DNA from: Jiella mangrovi
Lineage (GTDB): Bacteria; Pseudomonadota; Alphaproteobacteria; Rhizobiales; Rhizobiaceae
Direction of reading: 5' to 3'
Length of the DNA stretch: 64,000 bases
Assembly: GCF_017815135.1 (NCBI RefSeq)
Contig: NZ_JAGJCF010000003.1
Coordinates: forward strand, 124,001 to 188,000
The translations under genes were made by a program, and so were the position numbers. This document shows, piece after piece, positions 28,796 to 52,196 of the stretch. The notes under the pieces were generated by a model. The model made no database searches and was not told the DNA's origin. It was given only the letters and a program-made list of their open reading frames with translations. Each line of letters starts with the position of its first letter. The first letter of the stretch is position 1.

Positions 28796-29689
28796 TCACC
28801 CTCGCAGCGCTTCCGCAAGATTTCTCGCGAACAGGGTCGCGACCGTCAGGTCCGCCGAAGTGCCGGGATTGAGGCCCTCCTGCTTGAGCGAATTATCGAA
28901 ACCGAGTGCAACCGTCAGGATCTCCTGGGGATCGCTTAGCCCGTTCAAGGTGTTACTGAACTCCTGAAACCGGACGCGGGTCGCCTCTGCCGTTTCGGAG
29001 CCGAATTTTCGGGCGATGTGACTGTCGGGAAATTTGCCGGCAAAGGAAAGAAAGACCCGAACCGTCCGGGCGTCGCCCAGAACGTCGATCGGGGTTGGTA
29101 CGGTCACGTCGGCGGCCGCAAGGCGGGTCTCGAAGATGTCCTCGAAGCTTTTGGCATATTGGCGCGCGACGAGATCGCTGTCGGACACGAGAGCCATCGC
29201 CTCGACGAGAGAGATTGTCGGCGCATCGCGGACGTCGTTTTCCGGCCGGCGCACAAGCCCGCCGGGATTGGCGAGGGCGATCGCCGCAAAGGCTGCCTTC
29301 GCGTCGTCGGCGCCAAGATCCGCCAGAACGCGGTCGAGGCCAGAGCGGAGCGCCGCGACAAGATCCCGCGATGACGAAGCCTTGGCACTTTCGGCAGCCG
29401 TGGTCTCGGCCGCTGCGGCGAGCGGGGCGCAAAGGAGAAGGATGCCGAGATTGGCATTGACCCCGACGGCGGCGAAACTCGCCTCGGTCGCCGCGAGGAT
29501 CCGCGCCCCGACCGGTGCTCCCGTGCGGGCGATGGCCGGCGCGGCCGCCTTGGCCGCGGCCCGGAAGGTCTCCGTCGTCATGCCGTGGCCGGCGGCGAAC
29601 CGATGGACGTTGCCGGGCTTCAGCGTCTCGATCTCCGCGTGACAGGCGGCGAGAAACGCTGCTTCGACCGTTGCCGAAGAAAGGCTCAT
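28796..29689 (-). CDS. CitG/MdcB-like triphosphoribosyl-dephospho-CoA synthase homologue (C1-cluster 'orf7' type)
   Basis: A 297-residue homologue of triphosphoribosyl-dephospho-CoA synthase. [20 protein letters not shown] is the family substrate motif, [14 protein letters not shown] the second, and [20 protein letters not shown] the third. In methylotroph H4MPT clusters such a gene lies between an ATP-grasp gene and fae and is needed for the pathway, though its reaction is not firmly known; it may build part of the cofactor. ATG 29689 overlaps the stop of the upstream ATP-grasp gene (ATGA). No citrate or malonate lyase genes are nearby, which argues against the classical CitG role. Confidence 0.82.
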
Positions 29690-30633
29690 GTCAGGGCTGG
29701 ATGCTCGCGGACCCGGCGCCGGGCGGCGAGGGCGCCGAGAAGGTCCTTCGCCCGAACAGCTGCGATGTCGAGGCCGCTCGCCTTTTTCAGCCCGGTCCAG
29801 GCCGGCATGGAATTGACCTCCAGAACGTTTGGCCGGCCGCTTGCATCCTTCAAGAGATCGACGCCGCAAAAGTCGCCGCCGACCGCCGTGGTGGCGGCTA
29901 TGGCGAGGTCTTCGAGCTCGCGGTCGGCCTCGATCGCATGGGCCGAGGCGCCCTGCTTGATATTGGTGATCCAGCATGCCGCCTCGCGGCGCATGGCGGC
30001 GACGACGCGCCCCTGCGAGACGAGGACGCGGTAGTCCGACCATCGCCCGTCAGACGAATGGCCGATGAAGCGCTGGAGATAGAAGACGCCGCCGGCGATC
30101 TCGTCATGCGGCGGCAGGTCGTCGATGCTGCCGATCAGCCTCAGGCCCTTGCCCTGCGCCCCGAACAGCGGCTTGAGAACGAGCGCGCGGTTTTCCGCCG
30201 CGACGATCCGCTCGGCCTCGGCGCGCGATTCCACCGTCCAGCTGCGCGGCGTCGGCAGGCCGGCCTTTGCGATGAGGAAACTGGTCATCGCCTTGTCGAC
30301 GCAGTTCTCGATCGCCCGCGCATCGTTGGAGACGAGGACGCCCAGTCTGCCGAGGGCGTGGAGGATCGACAGCCGCCGGGTCACCGCCTCGAAGCTGCCG
30401 CCGTCCATGGTGCGGACGCACACGGCGTCGGGAAGCGTCTCGCCGAAGCCGGGGAAGACGAGCCCATGGCGCGCGCCAGTGTCGAAGCCGACATCGGCAA
30501 GGCCCGAGGTGACGACCAGCGCGCCTCCTGCCTCGAACGCGTCCTTCAGTTCGCGCGCATGTCGATCGAGATTGGCCGTGACGAGCAGGATGCGCGGCTT
30601 GCCGGCGCCTCCCGGCTCAGCCGAAAGAGGCAT
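29686..30633 (-). CDS. RimK-like ATP-grasp ligase (C1-cluster 'orf5' type)
   Basis: A 315-residue ATP-grasp protein. IENCVDKAMTSFLIAKAGLP begins the fold, VLKPLFGAQGKGLRLI is the ATP-binding lysine and Gly loop, and VGGDFCGVDLLKD then VLEVNSMPAWTGLKKASG supplies the Mg-binding acidic and Asn residues. The closest well-studied relatives add glutamate to tetrahydromethanopterin or F420 in archaea, so a cofactor-tailing role in H4MPT synthesis is likely here. Its start overlaps mch by 17 bases and its end overlaps the citG-like gene by ATGA. Confidence 0.85.
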   Translation of the reverse strand: MPLSAEPGGAGKPRILLVTANLDRHARELKDAFEAGGALVVTSGLADVGFDTGARHGLVFPGFGETLPDAVCVRTMDGGSFEAVTRRLSILHALGRLGVLVSNDARAIENCVDKAMTSFLIAKAGLPTPRSWTVESRAEAERIVAAENRALVLKPLFGAQGKGLRLIGSIDDLPPHDEIAGGVFYLQRFIGHSSDGRWSDYRVLVSQGRVVAAMRREAACWITNIKQGASAHAIEADRELEDLAIAATTAVGGDFCGVDLLKDASGRPNVLEVNSMPAWTGLKKASGLDIAAVRAKDLLGALAARRRVREHPALT

Positions 30634-47816: not shown

Positions 47817-48989
47817 ATGACTGCCATGCTCGCAAACAGCGCTTCGATCGATGCACTTGATCCATCCCGTGAAAAAGAACCGCTGGCCCGTCTGCGGCCG
47901 GCGACCGCGGAAGACATCGATGCGCTGGTCGCGCTCGAAGAGGCCTCCTTCGTCGCGGACCGCATCACCCGCCGATCGTTCAGAAACCTCATCGGTTCGC
48001 CGAGTGCGCTCATCATCGTTGCCTGTGGCGGCGACCAGCGCACGCTCGCCGGCTATGCCGCGCTGCTGTTTCGCCGGGGCACCGCGCTGGCGCGGCTCTA
48101 TTCGCTCGCGGTGGCGGTCGGCGCCGCCGGAAAGGGCATCGGTCGCGCGCTGTTGAAGGCCGCCGAGACCGAGGCCTTCGAGCGCGACCGCATCCTCTTG
48201 CGGCTGGAGGTGCGCGAGGACAACGAGCGGGCGATCAAGCTCTACCGCGCCAACGGCTATCGGCCGATCGGTCGCTATCTCGACTATTACGACGACCACA
48301 TGCCGGCGCTGCGCTTCGAAAAGACCCTGCGCGGCGAAAAGCTCTTCGAGACCGGCGTTCCCTATTACGAGCAGACCACCGATTTCACCTGTGGGTCATG
48401 CTGTCTGATGATGGCGATGGCGCGGGACGTGCCGGGATTTCGTCTCGATCCGGTGATGGAAATCCGCCTCTGGCGCGAGGCGACGACGATTTTCATGATG
48501 TCCGGCCCTGGCGGCTGCGACCCCTTTGGCCTCGCCGTCACGGCCCATGAATTCGGCCTCGATGCGCAGATACACGTCTCTCAGGCCGGCGATCTCTTTC
48601 TCGAGGGCGTCAGAAACGTCCACAAGCAGAAGGTGATGATGCTCGCCCAGGAGGATTTCCGCCGGCGGGCCGCAGAGTATGAGATCCCGACCGTCGTCGA
48701 GCCGTTCACCCTCGATCTGCTCTCGGCTCATCTGAAGAAAGGCGGCACGGCGATCGTGCTCGTTTCCGGCTACCACATGTTCGCCAAGAAGGTGCCGCAC
48801 TGGGTGCTCGCCCATGGGGACGATGGTCGCCATATTGTCATCCACGACCCCTGGGTCGCTGACGAAAAGGGCGAATCCATCGCCGACGCGGCCTATTTGC
48901 CGCTGCCTTATGCAACCTTTGACAAGATGGCGCGCTTCGGGAAGTCCGTCCTGCGGGCGGCCGTTTTTCTCTCACCGCGCCGGAGCTGA
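47817..48989 (+). CDS. GNAT acetyltransferase fused to a C39-like (papain-fold) peptidase
   Basis: A 390-residue two-domain protein. Residues about 25-170 are a GNAT domain (RLRPATAEDIDALVALEEAS, then YSLAVAVGAAGKGIGRALLK with the acetyl-CoA loop, and REDNERAIKLYRANGYRPIG). Residues 175-390 are a papain-like peptidase: YYEQTTDFTCGSCCLMMAMA with Cys192, His328 in VPHWVLAHG and Asp344 in HDPW. The start is ATG 47817, or the second ATG 47826. The ATP-grasp ligase gene starts 9 bases after its stop. Iyer and colleagues described this fusion beside RLAN/ATP-grasp ligases and predicted synthesis or tagging of peptides. A known substrate is lacking. Confidence 0.8.
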   Translation: MTAMLANSASIDALDPSREKEPLARLRPATAEDIDALVALEEASFVADRITRRSFRNLIGSPSALIIVACGGDQRTLAGYAALLFRRGTALARLYSLAVAVGAAGKGIGRALLKAAETEAFERDRILLRLEVREDNERAIKLYRANGYRPIGRYLDYYDDHMPALRFEKTLRGEKLFETGVPYYEQTTDFTCGSCCLMMAMARDVPGFRLDPVMEIRLWREATTIFMMSGPGGCDPFGLAVTAHEFGLDAQIHVSQAGDLFLEGVRNVHKQKVMMLAQEDFRRRAAEYEIPTVVEPFTLDLLSAHLKKGGTAIVLVSGYHMFAKKVPHWVLAHGDDGRHIVIHDPWVADEKGESIADAAYLPLPYATFDKMARFGKSVLRAAVFLSPRRS

Positions 48990-48998
48990 ACCTCCTTC

Positions 48999-50453
48999 AT
49001 GTCCCAATGGGTCGTCCTCGCCGGTCGCTTGTCCGACCTCGACAACAGCGCCACCCCGCACAAGGTGATGACCAGCCGGGACTATCTTGCCCGTCCCGGC
49101 CTGTTTCGCGGACAGCGCCCGAAGATCATCAATCTGTCGCGCAGCTACACCTATCAAAGCCGGGGCTATTACGCCTCGCTGCTGGCCGAGGCGCGTGGCC
49201 ATCGCATCATTCCCTCGGTCGAGACGATGATCGACCTGTCGGAGAAGAAGCTCTACGAAAACGCGCTGCCCGAACTCGATTCCGTGCTTCGCAAGGCCTG
49301 TGCCAAAGGTGAGACGGTCTCGTCGCCGATAAGAATCTATTTCGGCTATGCCTGCGACGCGCGGCTCGAGCGATTTGCCAAGCTGGTCTTCGACTGGTTT
49401 CGGGCGCCGGCACTCGACATTCACATCGAACCGAACGCCGCCGTGCCGACCATCAAGCGGATTGCGTTTTCGCCGCTCGGCAAGTTCGACGACGGCGAGA
49501 TGGCGCGGCTCTATGCCGCGATGGAGCGCTATACGGCGCGTGAATGGCGCGCCGCCAAGACCAAGACGCCGGCGAAATACGCCTTCGCGACCCTCTATGA
49601 TCCCCGCGAGGAGCTGCCGCCGTCCTCGGTCGATACGCTCAAGCACTGGTCCCGGGTCGCGGCCCGGCTCGGTGTCGACGTCGAGCCGATCACCAGAAAG
49701 GACCTGCCGCGGCTCGCCAATTTCGACGCCCTGTTCATCCGCGAGACCACCTCGATCTCCAACCATACCTATCGCTTTGCCCGCCGGGCGATGCAGGAGG
49801 GGATGCCGGTCATCGACGATCCGATTTCGATGATCCGCTGCACCAACAAGGTCTATCTCAACGAGCTGATGGCGGCGAACGCCGTCGCCTGTCCGCAGAG
49901 CCTGATGATCGCCGGCCGCGAGGACCTCAAACGCGCCGCCGACGAACTCGGCTTTCCGATGGTGCTGAAAATTCCCGACGGCTCGTTCTCGCGCGGGGTC
50001 AAGAAAGTCGCCGATTTTGCCGGCCTCGAAACTTTGGCGACGGCGTGGCTGGAAGATTCCGACCTTCTGATCGCGCAGAAATTCATGCCGACGAAATTCG
50101 ATTGGCGGATTGGCGTTCTGGGCGGCGAGCCGCTCTTCGCGGTCCAGTATCTGATGGCCAACAACCATTGGCAGATCATCAATCACGAGACCGGCGGTCG
50201 CCCGCTCGAAGGTGGCTTCAAGACCTTCTCGCTCGGCGATACGCCGCCTCACGTCCTCGATGCGGGGCTGCGAGCCGCCCGCTGCATCGGCGACGGGCTT
50301 TACGGCGTGGACCTCAAGGAAACCGACGACGGGGTCTTCGTCATCGAGGTCAACGACAACCCGAACCTCGAACACGGTGTCGAGGATCAGGTCGAGAAGG
50401 ACGAGGTCTGGACCCGGCTCACCCGCTGGTTCATCGACCGGATCGAGCGGTAA
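48999..50453 (+). CDS. RLAN-domain RimK-like ATP-grasp ligase
   Basis: A 484-residue protein. The N-terminal ~200 residues (NLSRSYTYQSRGYYASLLAE, RIYFGYACDARLERFAKLVF) correspond to the RLAN domain, and from about residue 270 the RimK-like ATP-grasp begins (TNKVYLNELMAANAVACPQS, FPMVLKIPDGSFSRGVKKVA, IEVNDNPNLEHGVEDQ, with Mg-binding Glu and Asn). It should form amide bonds using ATP, joining amino acids or peptides end to end or to a protein. It pairs with the GNAT-peptidase fusion 9 bases upstream in one operon, the peptidase probably trimming and the ligase extending. Confidence 0.85.
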   Translation: MSQWVVLAGRLSDLDNSATPHKVMTSRDYLARPGLFRGQRPKIINLSRSYTYQSRGYYASLLAEARGHRIIPSVETMIDLSEKKLYENALPELDSVLRKACAKGETVSSPIRIYFGYACDARLERFAKLVFDWFRAPALDIHIEPNAAVPTIKRIAFSPLGKFDDGEMARLYAAMERYTAREWRAAKTKTPAKYAFATLYDPREELPPSSVDTLKHWSRVAARLGVDVEPITRKDLPRLANFDALFIRETTSISNHTYRFARRAMQEGMPVIDDPISMIRCTNKVYLNELMAANAVACPQSLMIAGREDLKRAADELGFPMVLKIPDGSFSRGVKKVADFAGLETLATAWLEDSDLLIAQKFMPTKFDWRIGVLGGEPLFAVQYLMANNHWQIINHETGGRPLEGGFKTFSLGDTPPHVLDAGLRAARCIGDGLYGVDLKETDDGVFVIEVNDNPNLEHGVEDQVEKDEVWTRLTRWFIDRIER

Positions 50454-50510: not shown

Positions 50511-52196
50511 TCAGGCCTCGCGCATGTGATCCGCGCGGCCGCGCGCGCCGACGATTTCGATCGAGGCGGAGGGAGCGCTGAACCAGTAGGCGGTCCTGGA
50601 GCCCGAATAGCCCGTATTGCTCCACGAGCCGCCGAGCCGGACAGCATTGGGCTGGCTGAATGTCTGGCCTCGGCCCTCGGTGTTGTCGCCCCAGTTATTG
50701 GCATAGGGGCCGCCGAATGCATTCCCCCAGACCCAGAGGCAGCCGGTCGCCTGGGTGACGCCCCATTTCGAGGTGAATTTGCGATCGTGGTTCGATGCGC
50801 CGACATTGGTCGTTGCAAGGCCGGTCGTCACCGGATCGCTGCCGCGCGATGCCGCTTCGAGCGTTCCGAACGCTGCGGCAGAAAAATCGCCGTAGCCGAG
50901 CAGCCGCTTGCCCACGGACGAGAGCAGTTCCGTCGCCTCGTACCAGGTCAGCGAGCCGTAGGTCGCAACGCCGTCGCCGCCGAACATCCCCGGCACTTTC
51001 GGTGGAACCGATCCGGTGGCGATCGTCGCGCCGGCGCGCGATGATCCGTCGACGTCGACATTGGTGCCGGTCAGATAGATGTCGCACCAGAACTGGCCCG
51101 CCACCAGCGCCATGCCGCGCGGATCGGCGCAGGCCGGCCGCCATTTCAGGTCCCACAGGCTGTAGGGATTGATCTGCGGTGTCCCATCGCCGCCGGTGTT
51201 GTAGCCCCCGGCATTTCCGCCGGCCGCATAGTGGAAGCCGCCGACTTTCCGGCTGTCCGCCGTCGTATGTCCGGACGGCGCCTGAAAATTCGCGTCCGCT
51301 TTGACCGACCCGTCGGAGCAGACATAGATCGCGTAGTCGGTCCCTGGAACGAGCGCCGGCATCTCGACGGCGGTCGGCGCGGCAAACGCGTGAACGAAGC
51401 CGGCGACGCCGACAAGCGTGCCCGCCTTCATGTTGAGTGTTCCCGTTCCGGTTCGCGTGAAGGCGACGCTCGCGGGGTCGGCTTTGCGGAAAAGGCCCGC
51501 CGCCAGATGCTCGAGCGCGGCCGTCTGGGGGAAGGTGACGCGCCCCGTCGTCCGCTCGACCGCGATCGCATCGTGGAACGTCGCGCCATCGGGAGAGACC
51601 TTGAGGCGGAAATCGTCGTCGCCGTAAAGCCCCATCAGGGCGCGGGTCGACCATCCGCTCTGGAAATTGAAGCCGGCATCCTTGCCGGCACCCTCCTTGT
51701 TGAACGTGCCGAGCACGCTGCCATTGCCGCTTCCCGACACGTCGTCATGACTGATGAGGACGGCGGAGGTCTTCACGGCAAGGCGATTGTTGTCGTCGGC
51801 CGCGGTGTTGACGCCGAGACGCGAGAGCGTGCCGGACGAGAACTCCTCGGCGCCCGGGACGGCGGATGTCCAACCGGCCCCGTCGTGAAGGAGCAGTCTG
51901 CCCTCGGATGAACACCAGGCCCGCCATCCCGCCCGCGGTTCGAGGAACATCCAGGCGCCGTCCTGCCAGACCGCGACGTTGCCGCCTTGTCCGATCCAGT
52001 CTCCCGAGGCGCTGCTGGAGACGATGTAGCGATCGCCGGCGAGGGGATCGGCCGGCGGCTCGGTCAGGTCGCGGGCGTGGACGGCGAGATGGACGAGGGC
52101 ATCGAGCCGGATCAGCGCGTCGTTGTGCGTGACGTGCTTCTGGGCTTGATCGGCGAGGATGACGGGAAGGGCGAGGCGATCCGTTGTGTCGGGCAT
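50511..52196 (-). CDS. DUF2793 tail-fibre-like protein with C-type-lectin-like end
   Basis: A 561-residue protein. Residues about 8-105 form a DUF2793 domain (ADQAQKHVTHNDALIRLDAL, DRYIVSSSASGDWIGQGGNV), seen in phage and gene-transfer-agent tail proteins. A middle beta-rich fibre region follows. The last ~170 residues (PRGMALVAGQFWCDIYLTGT, LTWYEATELLSSVGKRLLGY, VRLGGSWSNTGYSGSRTAYW, ending GARGRADHMREA) look like the C-type-lectin fold of phage tropism proteins diversified by retroelements. AAGGACC precedes ATG 52196. There is no other phage gene and no reverse transcriptase in the window, so it is an orphan, probably surface or tail related. Confidence 0.72.
   Translation of the reverse strand: MPDTTDRLALPVILADQAQKHVTHNDALIRLDALVHLAVHARDLTEPPADPLAGDRYIVSSSASGDWIGQGGNVAVWQDGAWMFLEPRAGWRAWCSSEGRLLLHDGAGWTSAVPGAEEFSSGTLSRLGVNTAADDNNRLAVKTSAVLISHDDVSGSGNGSVLGTFNKEGAGKDAGFNFQSGWSTRALMGLYGDDDFRLKVSPDGATFHDAIAVERTTGRVTFPQTAALEHLAAGLFRKADPASVAFTRTGTGTLNMKAGTLVGVAGFVHAFAAPTAVEMPALVPGTDYAIYVCSDGSVKADANFQAPSGHTTADSRKVGGFHYAAGGNAGGYNTGGDGTPQINPYSLWDLKWRPACADPRGMALVAGQFWCDIYLTGTNVDVDGSSRAGATIATGSVPPKVPGMFGGDGVATYGSLTWYEATELLSSVGKRLLGYGDFSAAAFGTLEAASRGSDPVTTGLATTNVGASNHDRKFTSKWGVTQATGCLWVWGNAFGGPYANNWGDNTEGRGQTFSQPNAVRLGGSWSNTGYSGSRTAYWFSAPSASIEIVGARGRADHMREA

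Follow-up and report, generated by a model that had tools for sequence, protein, structure and literature searches.

A conserved GNAT and RLAN-ATP-grasp ligase core with an optional C39-like peptidase: anatomy of a predicted amidoligase family from a locus of Jiella mangrovi

A stretch of 64,000 nucleotides of Jiella mangrovi DNA (contig NZ_JAGJCF010000003.1, positions 124,001 to 188,000; the window in what follows) carries two adjacent genes, one encoding a GNAT acetyltransferase domain fused to a C39-like papain-fold peptidase domain (DUF3335) and the other an RLAN-ATP-grasp ligase. It is clear from comparison of 175 RLAN loci that the stable unit of such systems is the GNAT together with the ligase, and that the C39 domain is optional. 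Iyer and co-workers are said to have predicted, in 2009, amidoligase systems built from RLAN-ATP-grasp, GNAT and papain-like proteins, and by its sequence the window pair is a member of this predicted RLAN/DUF3335-GNAT family. The family prediction was already known; what is added here is the anatomy of the family and a testable scheme for its action. The parts of the pair are as follows.

47817-48989 (+): GNAT-C39 fusion gene, 390 aa (open reading frame (ORF) list, Pfam matches)
47883-48332 (+): GNAT domain, residues ~23-172, N-terminal-acetyltransferase type (PF00583, 53.2 bits; RimI model; structure match)
48357-48971 (+): C39-like papain-fold domain DUF3335, residues 181-385, with Gln186, Cys192, His328 and Asp344 (PF11814, 254.8 bits; residue counts)
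48999-50453 (+): RLAN-ATP-grasp ligase gene, 484 aa (ORF list, Pfam matches)
49077-49505 (+): RLAN domain, residues 27-169 (PF14401, 139 bits)
49578-50450 (+): RimK/LysX-like ATP-grasp module, residues 194-484, with R248, K324, R370, D438, E450 and N452 (PF08443 (RimK), 32.6 bits)

A first-pass annotation had described a fusion of GNAT and papain-like peptidase with the ligase gene 9 bases downstream, and the ORFs and Pfam matches confirm this arrangement. All four Pfam matches (PF11814, PF00583, PF14401 and PF08443) lie above cut-off; RLAN and the RimK-like ATP-grasp, found on a single chain, score 139 and 32.6 bits against cut-offs of 25 and 21. In a profile search of the whole genome (4.9 Mb, 41 contigs) DUF3335 and RLAN gave one match each. 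The start codon at 47817 is uncertain: residues 1-19 are of low confidence in the predicted model and several homologues begin later. Of the named relatives that were found, Jiella endophytica stands nearest, its ligase being 92% identical over 484 columns (91% by tblastn). Mesorhizobium and Azospirillum also have members with the pair.

The loci read were 100 stretches (94 with RLAN, six without), the window, and the best 80 named-genome loci, these being the ones most similar to the window; together they give the 175 RLAN loci, with 170 distinct ligases. The sample is non-random, all 23 RLAN-without-DUF3335 genomes of the same-family draw described below having been included deliberately. 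Loci were read as tagged ORFs and stop-to-stop segments, and a GNAT profile was made from 85 of their sequences. With this profile a GNAT of the same subfamily was found within 2.5 kb of RLAN in 173/175 loci (weakest match E 9e-26). Of the two exceptions, one is at a contig edge (L129) and the other belongs to a genome whose GNAT-C39 gene is on a separate contig (L081, L082). As a control for specificity, all 178 strong GNAT matches in the 181 stretches sit in RLAN or GNAT-C39 loci. The C39 domain is present in 101 of the 175 RLAN loci; none was found in the stretch for the remaining 74, three of which have it elsewhere in the genome (G053, G386, G204). Nearly all C39-less loci carry instead a GNAT that is fused to the ligase or, mostly, stands alone; the stand-alone form is ~150-190 residues long, and its gene commonly shares 4 bases with the start of the ligase gene. 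In three loci (L059, L076, L110) GNAT, RLAN and ATP-grasp make up a single open frame. Gene order is variable (co-directional, divergent or ligase first). The first-pass annotation had taken the GNAT-C39 fusion plus the ligase as the unit; their linkage in the window stands, but this combination is not the conserved core.

By parsimony on the ligase tree (FastTree, 176 rows thinned to 139, some branches long) C39 presence switches at least 25 times, and 17 of these switches are forced by starred branches; L076, L081 and L107 were scored as having C39 because it lies elsewhere in those genomes. The simple reading would be an ancestral GNAT-C39 fusion from which C39 was lost repeatedly. Two of the loci, L199 and L208, are labelled Acidobacteria and are possibly mis-binned: L199 clusters with a Hyphomonas locus (L208 was thinned from the tree). 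At L060:6506-7144 (+) the GNAT and ligase genes are separated by a C39 segment in the opposite orientation, which scores 79.6 bits against ~250 in other members and is perhaps an inversion in decay. Three further DUF3335 copies, at L122:5974-7065 (-), L123:3992-5050 (-) and L123:13045-14250 (+), have an N-terminal half without match to the window GNAT, and their stretches hold no ligase.

Across genomes, RLAN and DUF3335 are co-conserved far above chance. Among 199 genomes drawn from the window's own family RLAN is found in 83, DUF3335 in 61 and both in 60; in a draw of 398 genomes from the phylum the corresponding numbers are 71, 57 and 56 (lists compared by eye). With kinship uncorrected, the association has a Fisher p of 2e-30 in the family draw and 5e-53 in the phylum draw. 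It follows from these counts that DUF3335 almost never occurs without RLAN, whereas RLAN often occurs without DUF3335. Co-conservation of the genes, whose failure the first-pass annotation had set beforehand as a possible refutation of its proposal, therefore holds, 56/57 DUF3335 genomes of the phylum draw carrying RLAN. In 14 control genomes RLAN had no match in any and DUF3335 matched only in Methanosarcina acetivorans.

The catalytic residues had been described as intact, and the alignments bear this out. Among domain matches with E < 1e-15 (107 for C39, 178 for GNAT), Gln186, Cys192 and His328 of C39 are invariant (107/107), while position 344 holds Asp in 99 domains and Glu in the other 8. 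In the GNAT, Glu131 is invariant (178/178) and Tyr143 is kept in 173/178; both align with the same residues of the genome's own RimI-like protein, and we take them to be the positions of the RimI catalytic pair Glu103/Tyr115. In the ligase, K324, R370, D438, E450 and N452 are the same in every one of the 175 rows except a single gapped row, and K324, D438, E450 and N452 correspond to RimK Lys141, Asp248, Glu260 and Asn262, of which D248 and E260 are presumably catalytic. When the catalytic and poly-glutamate-binding set of RimK is followed through, using the ligand contacts given in PMC10092738, K141, R64, R189, D248, E260 and N262 are kept in the RLAN ligases and R8, R211 and N213 are not.

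Fold searches with predicted models returned lists made up of matches to the ATP-grasp half and to the GNAT half. The nearest structures to the GNAT half are the protein N-terminal acetyltransferases Ard1 and RimI, and those to the ligase half are LysX/ArgX/RimK, which join amino acids at C-terminal glutamates. By NCBIfam cut-offs the pair is not RimK, RimI, LysX or NAGGN synthetase. The ligase scores 24.5 bits with PRK10446 (cut-off 331) and 88.7 with rimK_fam (cut-off 143.4), and 90.4 with the LysX/ArgX model (cut-off 275.6); the GNAT scores 64.5 with the RimI model (cut-off 86.4), the second highest among the genome's 21 matches; and with TIGR03103 (NAGGN synthetase, cut-off 569) the GNAT-C39 protein reaches 22.8 bits, no ligase match being listed. 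NAGGN synthetase was rejected as the identity of the pair, the true enzyme lying on contig C5 of the same genome (G000:C5:35985-37625 (-), 913 bits). A LysW-carrier pathway was likewise rejected, a profile search having found no LysW match in the genome, which sets the pair further apart from LysX/ArgX.

With RimK (of RimK/RimB) the window ligase has the ATP-grasp fold in common and, of the RimK residue set, the catalytic residues but not R8, R211 and N213; it has in addition an RLAN domain and a GNAT partner, and the peptidase is papain-like rather than retropepsin-like. Its GNAT, although best matched in structure by RimI/Ard1, differs from them in being tied to a ligase gene. The systems predicted by Iyer et al. 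have the same Pfam domains (RLAN, RimK-like ATP-grasp, DUF3335 and GNAT) and the same linkage as the window pair; to these the present loci add the near-constancy of the GNAT, its N-terminal-acetyltransferase type, the optional C39, and single-chain and viral versions. The genome also encodes glutathione synthase and an MptN-like ligase. A second RimK-family ligase stands in the window at 29686-30633 (-). It is just above the rimK_fam cut-off (152.4 against 143.4), and its nearest model is that of the tetrahydromethanopterin:glutamate ligase MptN, with 178.6 bits against a cut-off of 350.

Viral contigs were covered in two scans, which gave six and nine loci on partly shared contigs. Four (L220 = L229, L230, L231, L232) have overlapping GNAT and ATP-grasp genes without RLAN or C39. 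The neighbours in L220, L231 and L232 match phage baseplate, integrase, endolysin, replication or annealing families; in L230 the single neighbour protein tested had no phage-family match. ATP-grasp genes of this clade without GNAT or RLAN lie inside phage structural modules at L217:5917-6888 and L218:6016-6951, those of L217 and L218/L219 adjoining portal genes and that of L218 standing between terminase and portal. L222 has a short RLAN, and L221 is cut by the contig end. Among plasmid records 39 match the ligase, 11 of them covering at least 80%; 19 phage records match, 0 covering 80%. Phage GNATs and R2K ATP-grasp ligases have been suggested to modify host proteins (PMC7824862).

The explanation that we prefer, and to which we give about an even chance, is a two-enzyme module that caps and extends peptides, with an optional peptidase. 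The GNAT would transfer acetyl from acetyl-CoA onto the alpha-amino end of an acceptor, either a short peptide or a polypeptide end; on that same acceptor the RLAN-ATP-grasp enzyme would activate the carboxyl end at the cost of ATP and attach an amino acid there, in the manner of RimK and LysX/ArgX. The RLAN domain may help in binding the cellular acceptor or in regulating the ligase. In proteins that have it, the C39-like domain would cut the product or its precursor, and with such a role in trimming or turnover it could be lost while the rest stays. Capping and extension are assigned to synthesis, and C39 to trimming or recycling, because no cellular genome examined is clearly without a GNAT alongside the ligase, while C39 is often absent. 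We infer in this way the single acceptor for both enzymes, the order of steps and the roles of RLAN and C39; as acceptor, a short peptide is somewhat favoured over a folded protein. The first-pass annotation had proposed peptide synthesis or tagging. This fits the domains and folds and is partly supported, being right in kind, but it was misplaced in its core, which is GNAT plus ligase rather than GNAT-C39 plus ligase.

A bolder form of the scheme, which we think rather unlikely, is a dedicated two-ended modifier, a "RimI-RimK in one operon", that would seal a peptide or small protein at its amino end and add amino acids at its carboxyl end; in some lineages the fused peptidase would serve as eraser, and the reduced copies carried by phages would act on host peptides or translation. 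A core of GNAT and ligase with a dispensable C39 points experimenters to the genes for deletion; the mass shifts to expect are plus 42 combined with added amino-acid residues, and the single-chain and viral versions offer small test proteins. As a family member the window pair is ordinary, its interest being that of an unsolved, widespread pathway.

Several points weigh against the capping and extending module. To our knowledge no product, substrate or phenotype is known for the pair. Kinship of fold does not fix substrates, linkage alone is no proof of a shared substrate, and NAGGN synthetase shows that GNAT and ATP-grasp can work on free amino acids. The ligase model has a predicted template modelling score (pTM) of 0.60, so the arrangement of RLAN and ligase is unsure. 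Of the RimK residues that are not kept, R8 is replaced by Pro/Ala (the alignment being unsure in the N-terminal part), R211 by Gln in 174/175 and N213 by Val/Tyr/Ile. Furthermore, in the viral contigs L217, L218/L219 and L222 the stretch holds the ATP-grasp but no GNAT. Finally, a one-step scheme leaves unexplained why some genomes (G537, G204, G053, G546) have two GNATs, one beside the ligase and the other with C39; as the ligase already has its own GNAT there, the one kept with the C39 enzyme points to a separate task for the C39 fusion. The GNAT-C39 gene of G204 (L108) stands with DUF2817 and DUF155 genes.

Alternatively, the product of the pair may be an osmolyte or storage metabolite like NAGGN: the GNAT would acetylate a free amino acid and the ligase would add a second, and the resulting small N-acetyl dipeptide would be recycled by a peptidase. 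To this we give a minor share of the probability. NAGGN synthetase (Ngg) itself offers the model, uniting the same two activities, GNAT and ATP-grasp, in one protein whose operon has a peptidase gene (PMC8070244), although RLAN is absent from it and the window pair is far under its cut-off. In the family draw it is commoner in RLAN genomes (48/83 against 27/116; table 48/27/35/89; kinship uncorrected). DUF2817, which we take to be a peptidase, is found beside the locus in 8/100 stretches. However, with a true NAGGN synthetase already encoded elsewhere in the genome, a NAGGN-like product of the pair would have to be a second one; the RimI model gives the window GNAT its 64.5 bits against 37.5 for the NAGGN enzyme; and there was no asparagine-synthase-type amidotransferase among representatives of 22/24 neighbour families (those in at least five stretches). 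As a separate observation, within RLAN genomes C39 leans to those with NAGGN synthetase (39/21/9/14, p 0.05, kinship uncorrected).

It is distinctly unlikely, in our judgement, that the pair is a protein-end modifier of the RimI/RimK kind, acetylating and extending the ends of one or two proteins (S18 and S6 being the textbook case) so as to tune translation, with the phages using it for the same purpose. The closest folds of both halves are, from the predicted models, protein-end modifiers, viral copies exist, and none of the five RimK-domain matches in the genome reaches the S6-RimK cut-off, all of which would favour it. Against this, inspection of S6 tails in 15 RLAN-positive and 15 RLAN-negative genomes, including same-genus sisters, found no RLAN-linked difference, a negative that is weak because a target need not evolve; S6 was rejected as the target, its tails not tracking RLAN. 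The genome also has a separate RimI-like gene just short of the RimI cut-off (83.8 bits against 86.4) and lacks a match to LysW, the acceptor of LysX/ArgX, and a single chain acting at both ends of one folded protein would be awkward.

Very improbable is maturation of a ribosomal peptide (ribosomally synthesised and post-translationally modified peptide (RiPP) or graspetide-like), with C39 removing a leader, the GNAT capping the new amino end and the ligase extending or cross-linking: transporter C39 peptidases do cut double-glycine leaders (PMC10318531) and cutting followed by capping would explain the GNAT-C39 fusion, but C39 was not found in 74/175 loci, and no conserved precursor ORF was recognised. 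Up to 2.5 kb from the genes there are 9,128 small ORFs of 18-110 aa; those families that recurred at distant loci seemed, by eye, to be antisense shadows or fragments of neighbouring genes, though a fast-changing precursor could escape.

A genetic precedent comes from PMC12239564: in RimK/RimB and, by analogy, the Rlo operon, a ligase likewise has a genetically linked peptidase, and removing the ATP-grasp gene there offsets loss of the peptidases fully or partly. The first-pass annotation knew of no confirmed product, and our search of the open-access literature found no paper naming one for an RLAN ligase, widespread as the enzyme is (83/199 of the window's family, 71/398 of the phylum), and none containing both RLAN and ATP-grasp. 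DUF3335 is often fused to GNAT domains, according to a paper citing Iyer 2009. A fosmid table of Pseudomonas sp. ANT_H4 places a "RimK family protein" next to a GNAT (PMC9756463), which looks like the same kind of pair. In Pseudoalteromonas tunicata pellicles a "RimK family alpha-L-glutamate ligase" (EAR30706), which may have RLAN, is third among the raised proteins (log2 6.5 and 5.1; PMC12153261).

Genes for DUF155 (PF02582) and DUF2817 (PF10994) were considered as universal partners and rejected, each occurring in only 8/100 stretches. One or both of DUF2817 and DUF155 (RMND1/Sif2) adjoin the GNAT-C39 or ligase genes in L092, L096, L098, L102, L108, L111, L115, L118, L129 and L132; DUF155 has no obvious role in these loci. 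Apart from local synteny, no theme emerged among 20 of the recurrent neighbour families (f18 and f23 were left out of the scan) or among seven further genes next to C39-less loci. At L113:6534-8095 (-) the GNAT gene directly abuts an amino-acid kinase gene with a PUA domain, and the same order in L114 may be plain synteny. In the window, the convergent neighbour of the pair at 50511-52196 (-) has DUF2793 and an Mtd second domain, parts that are presumably phage-tail-fibre-like.
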